The position numbers were made by a program, and so were the translations under genes. The notes under the pieces were generated by a model. That model had not been told where the DNA came from, searched no databases, and saw nothing but the letters and a program-made list of their open reading frames with translations. From assembly GCF_014698145.1 (NCBI RefSeq), contig NZ_JACJSM010000003.1, positions 124,001 through 188,000 of the forward strand: a stretch of DNA of 64,000 nt. Reading direction: 5' to 3'. Of this stretch, positions 47,672-48,760 are shown in pieces (position 1 is the first letter of the stretch; each line of letters begins with the position of its first letter). Origin of the DNA: Oscillatoria sp. FACHB-1406 (GTDB lineage Bacteria > Cyanobacteriota > Cyanobacteriia > Cyanobacteriales > Spirulinaceae).

Positions 47672-47733
47672 TCATTAATTTTGTGCGATCGTTCGACGGG
47701 ACTGGCCGGATTTGAACCGGCGACCTAGCGCTT

Positions 47734-48591
47734 CAGATTAGTGTGAGTTTCCCCACTCTCCGGACTATTCCTTCACCATAGGATAAACCATTAGGTGGCA
47801 GCCGTTTCGTTGTAGGAGGTTTGAACTTTACCTAGCATACTGGGATGGATATAAGGTCTCAGGAAAGTTAAAAAATTTTTTCCCGCCCGAGTCCCCAAGC
47901 GCAGGCGATAAGTTCCTCGACTTTTGCTTAACCCCCAATCAACGCCCCACACTTCCAAAAAATAGCGCGCGATTACCTCGTTGGCTTCCTTCGAGAGATG
48001 GGTATTGAGGGCAATTTCGATCGCGTGGATTTTACCGGCTTTGCGCTTGTACGATTTTGCGCCCTTGTCCATAAACCAAATGGCGATTCCTTGAGGGGTT
48101 AAGAAATTGAGAAATTGACGGGTAATTCGTTTGAGATTGCCGCAATAGAGTTTCTTAACTAAGACTCGAGTTAGGGGAATCAGTTTTGGTTCGAGGCGCA
48201 GGACGCGATCGCCCCAGCGATTGCTCCGTTCTCGAAGGTACACTGGCTGTTGGGTAATCTCCTCGAGTAGTGCTTTCTCGAACAGAAGGTAAGCGCTTTG
48301 CGACGGGGCGCGTTCGATAAAGAAGTTGCGATCGCGTTTTTGGGCGACTCCCAACAGCATTCCCGCTAAAATTCCCCGTTGCTCTTTTTTAGATGAGACA
48401 TTGTAGTCCATCGGTTTTAGCTCTCTACAACCAGTCTCTGCACCTTCCGTTTCCCCCGCGCTGCGATGCTTTCGCGAGCGTCCGAGATTCGGCTTGGCTC
48501 AAGATTACCGTATCTGCTTTCACAAACTTAGGCTCCCTTGAATTTGACTGCATTCATCGGGGAAGTTTCCCTCCGCGATGCCCGAGCGTTC
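47734..48591 (-). ncRNA. Group I self-splicing intron in tRNA-Arg(CCU)
   Basis: This 858-nt intron starts after U36 of the tRNA and ends in G before A37, as group I introns require (5' exon ends in U, intron ends in G). The core is typical of cyanobacterial tRNA introns: the P4/P6 block TTGAGCCAAGCC (48491-48502), P3/P7 block GGTGCAGAGACT (48433-48444), a P7 3' strand ATAGTCC (47762-47768) and a terminal hairpin GTGGGGAAACTCAC (47743-47756). A candidate guide GGAGG (48570-48574) pairs with exon CCUCC; the conserved U-G pair at the 5' splice site was not resolved by eye. The open frame lies between the P7 strands, in the P8 region. Confidence 0.9.
47791..48411 (-). CDS. Intron-encoded LAGLIDADG protein with altered catalytic positions
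   Basis: This 206-residue protein sits inside the intron, starting at ATG 48411. Two LAGLIDADG motifs are visible: GILAGMLLGVAQ near 13 and LTPQGIAIWFMDKG near 104, with the LAGLIDADG_2-like surroundings. Such proteins cut the intronless allele (homing) or help the intron fold (maturase). The acidic residue that binds the catalytic metal, at position eight of each motif, is Val in the first and Lys in the second, so DNA cleavage is doubtful. The protein is basic, in keeping with nucleic-acid binding. Codons are intact to the TAA at 47791. Confidence 0.85.
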   Translation of the reverse strand: MDYNVSSKKEQRGILAGMLLGVAQKRDRNFFIERAPSQSAYLLFEKALLEEITQQPVYLRERSNRWGDRVLRLEPKLIPLTRVLVKKLYCGNLKRITRQFLNFLTPQGIAIWFMDKGAKSYKRKAGKIHAIEIALNTHLSKEANEVIARYFLEVWGVDWGLSKSRGTYRLRLGTRAGKNFLTFLRPYIHPSMLGKVQTSYNETAAT

Positions 48592-48760
48592 AGGAGGCGC
48601 TTGCTCTATCCAACTGAGCCACAGCCCCTTGGTCGGCAATTGACCTCTGATATTTTATCAATAAAATCGAGAAATCGAGTTTCTGGTTTCGAGAGGATCG
48701 TTCCCAATCCCACGAATGATATCTTGAAGATCTAGCACCTTCACGTCCTTATAAAGAGCC

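Follow-up and report, generated by a model that had tools for sequence, protein, structure and literature searches.

A LAGLIDADG gene without catalytic aspartates in a cyanobacterial tRNA-Arg(CCU) group I intron: a probable splicing helper whose reading frame overlaps the ribozyme core

The split tRNA gene and its group I intron

The window, the whole stretch of 64,000 nucleotides of Oscillatoria sp. FACHB-1406 DNA that was analysed, contains a tRNA-Arg(CCU) gene interrupted by an intron with an open reading frame (ORF). The original prediction had placed this gene at 47697-48628, with two 37-nt exons that join to a 74-nt tRNA across a gap of 858 nt. These values are exact. With introns allowed, ARAGORN calls a split tRNA-Arg(cct) at c[47697,48628], entirely on the minus strand, which had gone unstated, and puts the 858-nt intron after exon nucleotide 37, between U36 and A37. 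The intron begins after U36 and ends in G, as predicted. In the direction of transcription the features are:

48592-48628, minus strand: 5' exon, 37 nt, ending in the anticodon CCU (U36) (ARAGORN intron mode; an intronless homologue is 74/74 identical to the joined exons)
47734-48591, minus strand: group I intron, 858 nt (ARAGORN; Rfam Intron_gpI, E=2.6e-6; ORF-less same-site homologues above the gathering score)
48581-48583, minus strand: internal guide GGG, which forms the 3-bp P1 with the 5'-exon CCU (U36.G) (sequence)
48546-48551, minus strand: P3 5' strand GCAGUC (6/6 pairs with GGCUGC; covariation)
48432-48436, minus strand: P7 5' strand GACUG (Rfam alignment)
48421-48431, minus strand: P7.1 5' arm GUUGUAGAGAG, carrying the weak Shine-Dalgarno-like region of the ORF (matched versus swapped arm energies)
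47791-48411, minus strand: ORF of 206 aa, LAGLIDADG_2 (I-SceI type), with V22 and K116 at the catalytic Asp positions (PF03161, I-SceI alignment, family table, AlphaFold2/Foldseek)
47809-47818, minus strand: P7.1 3' arm CUCCUACAAC, which is also the C-terminal codons (..T)SYN (matched versus swapped arm energies)
47798-47803, minus strand: P3 3' strand GGCUGC, within the C-terminal codons TAA(T) (P3 covariation)
47774-47797, minus strand: P8 hairpin CACCUAAUGG..CCUAUGGUG, including the UAA stop codon (sequence)
47763-47767, minus strand: P7 3' strand UAGUC (sequence)
47734-47762, minus strand: P9 region (GGGGAAACUC hairpin) and terminal intron G (sequence)
47697-47733, minus strand: 3' exon of tRNA-Arg(CCU), 37 nt (ARAGORN intron mode)

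In the proposed comparison with intronless relatives, genome G392, of the same host family, has an intronless tRNA-Arg(CCU) gene identical to the joined exons at 74/74 positions. The lack of a group I match, or a separate intact tRNA-Arg(CCU) gene, had been named as evidence against the split gene. The group I model matches, and no second CCU tRNA was found among the surveyed tRNAs of the FACHB-1406 genome; this survey combined searches and stretches and depended on a scan in which 150 of 334 candidates received a score, which makes it strong but not conclusive. Searching for the joined anticodon arm as a pattern returned no exact match and only matches at background level. Two tRNA-Arg(UCU) genes turned up in the same survey, so the host may have no strict need of the CCU tRNA. 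Many tRNA kinds are present twice in the genome. Clusters of many tRNA genes lie within about 2.3 kb on C5 (L065, G000:C5:121000-124500) and about 1.5 kb on C2 (L066, G000:C2:144000-146400), with a smaller group on C1 (L067, G000:C1:48000-49000).

In agreement with the original prediction the intron is a group I intron; it is of the tRNA type, IC3-like. Rfam Intron_gpI matches from P3 to P7 at 48548-48397(-) with 32.7 bits (E=2.6e-6). The ORF interrupts the model, which keeps this value under the gathering score of 50; relatives with an ORF-less intron at this site reach 57-70 bits. The hallmarks of the class, a U.G pair at the 5' splice site, a terminal G and the P3/P7 pairing, are present in the sequence and, for P3, in covariation, and TCGGGC around the internal guide is conserved among the introns read. 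The RNA is predicted to splice, for which the identity of the intronless allele to the joined exons is indirect evidence.

A 187-nt probe consisting of the 5' exon and the 5' part of the intron matches 293/391 genomes of the host order, many over its full length, and the ORF-less introns read at this site are mostly 204-323 nt long, with one of 394 nt. Since the intron site is this common in cyanobacteria, the ORF and not the intron is the special part of the locus. The expectation that ORF-bearing copies are uncommon did not hold: 47 of them were collected at this site. In ORF-less introns (e.g. L159, L166, L170, L172 and L187) the P6 loop can pair with the loop of P7.1, a label used here for an extra stem between P7 5' (GACUG) and P3 3'. 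This loop-loop pairing covaries, with -6.6 kcal/mol for matched against -4.2 kcal/mol for swapped loops and 0/1000 shuffles as low in 28 introns. In the ORF-bearing introns the ORF stands in place of that P7.1 loop.

Overlap of the reading frame with the ribozyme core

The ORF had been placed between the two P7 strands, and its position can be narrowed to the loop of P7.1, between P7 5' and P3 3'. P7.1 is present in most relatives and absent from some ORF-less introns (L173). Its arms have a matched mean energy of -13.1 kcal/mol, compared to -8.6 kcal/mol when arms are swapped between introns, so swapping costs 4.5 kcal/mol on average, and 0/2000 shuffles were as low. P3 occurs in five covarying types, with 6/6 pairs in all 34 introns read. 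An alternative P3' strand, GACUAC at the ORF start, was dropped, as GGCUGC at the ORF end pairs better and covaries.

In ORF-bearing introns the P7.1 5' arm, with a Shine-Dalgarno-like region, directly precedes the start codon; the FACHB-1406 copy has a weak match there, at -2.9 kcal/mol. The 3' end of the reading frame doubles as ribozyme: the last codons form the P7.1 3' arm and P3' and run into P8, which contains the stop codon. This overlap with P7.1, P3 and P8 was missed by the earlier reading. Translation and ribozyme folding should be mutually exclusive on one RNA, because a ribosome that reaches the stop codon would open P7.1, P3 and P8, and the closed helices would hide the start region. 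The overlap itself is a matter of sequence geometry; any regulatory role would come on top of it. In ten relatives (L008, L010, L036, L037, L039, L040, L041, L048, L053 and L056) the aligned start codon is ATA, not ATG. This is one change on the tree, and most carriers combine it with a strong Shine-Dalgarno-like AAGGAG in the usual spacing.

The intron-encoded protein and its catalytic positions

The protein matches PF03161 (LAGLIDADG_2) with E=1.1e-29, which bears out its predicted LAGLIDADG identity. All 20 aligned members (20/20) match this family and no other, and NCBIfam has no named family for the protein. The AlphaFold2 model has a pLDDT of 89.9; its only disordered part is residues 200-206 (pLDDT <50), which are encoded where the ORF overlaps ribozyme elements. 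The top Foldseek matches are I-WcaI and I-SceI, with TM scores of about 0.76 and 0.74, followed by lower matches to the bI3 maturase and WhiA domains.

A LAGLIDADG homing endonuclease has an acidic residue at the end of both motifs. When the protein is aligned to I-SceI, V22 falls on D44 and K116 on D145, the two catalytic residues of that enzyme, so both Asp are lost (D44->V, D145->K). The earlier reading missed this loss, and its implied picture of a mobile intron with a homing endonuclease is not supported by a protein that lacks both catalytic acidic residues here and in most relatives. Of the relatives in the same tRNA, 26 are non-redundant; 19 of these have neither Asp, five have a single one and two (L002 and L010) have both. 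In the alignment of relatives, column 22 ranks second in variability among 206 columns and column 116 ranks 13th, while the motif neighbours G17, L19, L20, G21, W112, D115 and G117 are invariant. The residues at the two catalytic positions predict a loss of nuclease activity, and L002 and L010 may still be nucleases.

Outgroups outside tRNA genes are D/D in 7/7 cases (two nrdB introns, one intein and four others). With D as the ancestral state and no regain allowed, the two sites need 11 and 12 independent losses; equal-cost parsimony gives 4 and 4 changes and allows Asp to be regained, so the tree does not prove the direction of change. An nrdB gene whose group I intron encodes a D/D relative of the ORF has more group I and group II intron matches nearby (L062:2641-3165(-)).

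Selection and descent

Relatives were collected from phylum, family and order searches, the last with hits in 48/391 genomes at E<=1e-15; the genomes searched sample species unevenly. All 47 ORF-bearing copies in tRNA-Arg(CCU), a few of which are named MAG loci whose genomes were also in the searched set, are inside the intron at the same site. In 44/47 the frame stays intact across the folded domain. The other three (L056, L057 and L058) have frameshifts, all in one poly-A run past the second motif; the run is of 9-10 A, and two families share the position of the frameshifts. Either transcript slippage or a sequencing error could be the cause. Pairwise dN/dS of close pairs, by a simple count method, is about 0.04-0.4 and mostly 0.1-0.3. 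Where both members lack both Asp the values are 0.17 (L024/L026), 0.19 (L027/L028) and about 0.09-0.39 (Q/R clade).

These data bear on the possibility that the protein is an ordinary degenerate homing endonuclease whose gene has reached the decay stage of the homing cycle, left without present function in a fixed intron. Active-site residues would go first in such decay, frameshifted copies exist, and many same-site introns have no ORF. Against this stand the low dN/dS and the full-length frames in 44/47 copies, found across families whose dS is saturated, and the age of the Asp losses, which are common to whole clades still under purifying selection. We regard simple decay as unlikely.

The ORF tree tracks the host family, with 10 changes where 9 is the minimum possible and shuffling gives a mean of 28. 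This pattern fits an intron that is no longer spreading. It weakens the proposal that the intron is still mobile, with an endonuclease that works, or nicks, through other residues. Such activity could be imagined in view of the intact fold in AlphaFold2 and Foldseek, the two D/D relatives and the five with one Asp. In the known LAGLIDADG mechanism, however, metal ions are held by a residue pair, and V/K, K/K, W/K, R/C and similar pairs cannot do this. Intronless alleles also persist in the same host family, and continued mobility appears very improbable. The intron-core tree is weakly resolved (11 changes, 2 of them forced), and both a single ORF gain and repeated loss fit it.

Related ORFs occur in 898-nt introns of tRNA-Asn(GUU) genes at L059:1315-2284(-), L060:1434-2403(-) and L061:1263-2232(+), where motif 1 ends in K or E and motif 2 in D. 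In G423 and G465, two other genomes of that family, the two tRNA-Asn exons match with about 0.3 kb between them. None of the five genomes searched showed a full-length tRNA-Asn(GUU) free of interruption.

Proposed role of the protein

The protein is encoded inside the intron that it accompanies and appears to be kept for its fold, not for nuclease activity, which the residues predict to be absent. We therefore suggest that it is probably a maturase, a retained non-nuclease splicing helper of its own intron. A LAGLIDADG protein can also be kept for binding DNA: WhiA is a DNA-binding regulator derived from this fold. A comparable regulator, acting perhaps on the tRNA gene or on its own transcription, would be in line with the WhiA domains among the Foldseek matches and with the basic character of the protein (pI 10.3). 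The 47 copies in tRNA-Arg are all intron-borne, however, and no second copy of the ORF was found in the FACHB-1406 genome, which fits better with a role in cis on the intron and gives the regulator only a small chance.

In the preferred maturase mechanism, the gene in the P7.1 loop would derive from an I-SceI-like homing endonuclease whose nuclease site has died; the protein would be kept for binding intron RNA and promoting folding or splicing, and the intron would now be vertically inherited as part of the tRNA gene. In the present cycle the precursor would be transcribed, and with P7.1 open a ribosome could start within or beside the P7.1 5' arm and read across the P7.1 3' arm and P3' into P8. 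Once ribosomes are gone, closure of P7.1, P3 and P8 would cover the start region and make the ribozyme core complete. This core would then be stabilised by the basic protein, and splicing would free the 74-nt tRNA. Splicing in the cell, RNA binding, a need for the protein and on/off translation belong to this model; the gene anatomy, active-site loss, selection, covariation and coding/core overlap on which it builds can be read from the sequences.

Two observations temper the maturase reading. The frameshifted L056-L058 still retain the intron, and ribozymes of this type can do without the protein in places, as many same-site introns of other families lack the ORF. Further, L002 and L010 keep D/D, so the selection seen could partly reflect past homing.

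Relation to known systems and implications

The closest known systems are the LAGLIDADG group I maturases, the bifunctional I-AniI and the fungal mitochondrial bI3/bI4, of which some relatives retain just one of the two activities (PMC3943268). These proteins are likewise encoded in their own group I introns, but the hosts are mitochondrial protein genes instead of a bacterial tRNA gene, and the FACHB-1406 family has an I-SceI-type fold with the active site lost in most relatives. A bacterial LAGLIDADG protein from a Thermotoga 23S intron reportedly stabilises the group I intron that encodes it (PMC3984707); there the host gene is an rRNA gene and the organism a hyperthermophile, and no report of family-wide active-site loss was found for it. 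I-Ssp6803I is also encoded in a cyanobacterial tRNA group I intron, that of tRNA-fMet (PMC1995217), but is a PD-(D/E)XK enzyme and an active homing endonuclease. I-SceI and I-WcaI share the fold and the sequence family (PF03161) with the FACHB-1406 protein, which lacks both of their catalytic Asp.

Chloroplast matK is a gene inside the trnK-UUU intron (PMC2694360). We compare it here as a vertically inherited maturase gene in a tRNA intron; it differs in its group II intron and its reverse-transcriptase-derived maturase. In the literature searched, which did not include the 1997 survey of cyanobacterial tRNA introns, no paper was found that describes a cyanobacterial tRNA-Arg(CCU) intron with a LAGLIDADG gene, and this does not establish that none exists. 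As far as the literature found shows, the tRNA host gene, the repeated active-site loss and a reading frame that overlaps P7.1, P3 and P8 are new.

More tentatively, and with somewhat less than even confidence, the family may be a lineage of single-purpose group I maturases in a bacterial tRNA gene of several cyanobacterial families, in which the nucleotides shared by gene and core act as a switch between ribosome access and folding, and would then be a group I counterpart of matK. Arguments about how an endonuclease becomes a maturase usually draw on a small number of fungal mitochondrial pairs. At the site of this one intron, related bacteria offer D/D, single-Asp, no-Asp, frameshifted, ORF-less and intronless versions, which makes the step from selfish nuclease to maturase directly testable. 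The locus is also an example of a ribozyme core that shares its nucleotides with the end of a protein gene.
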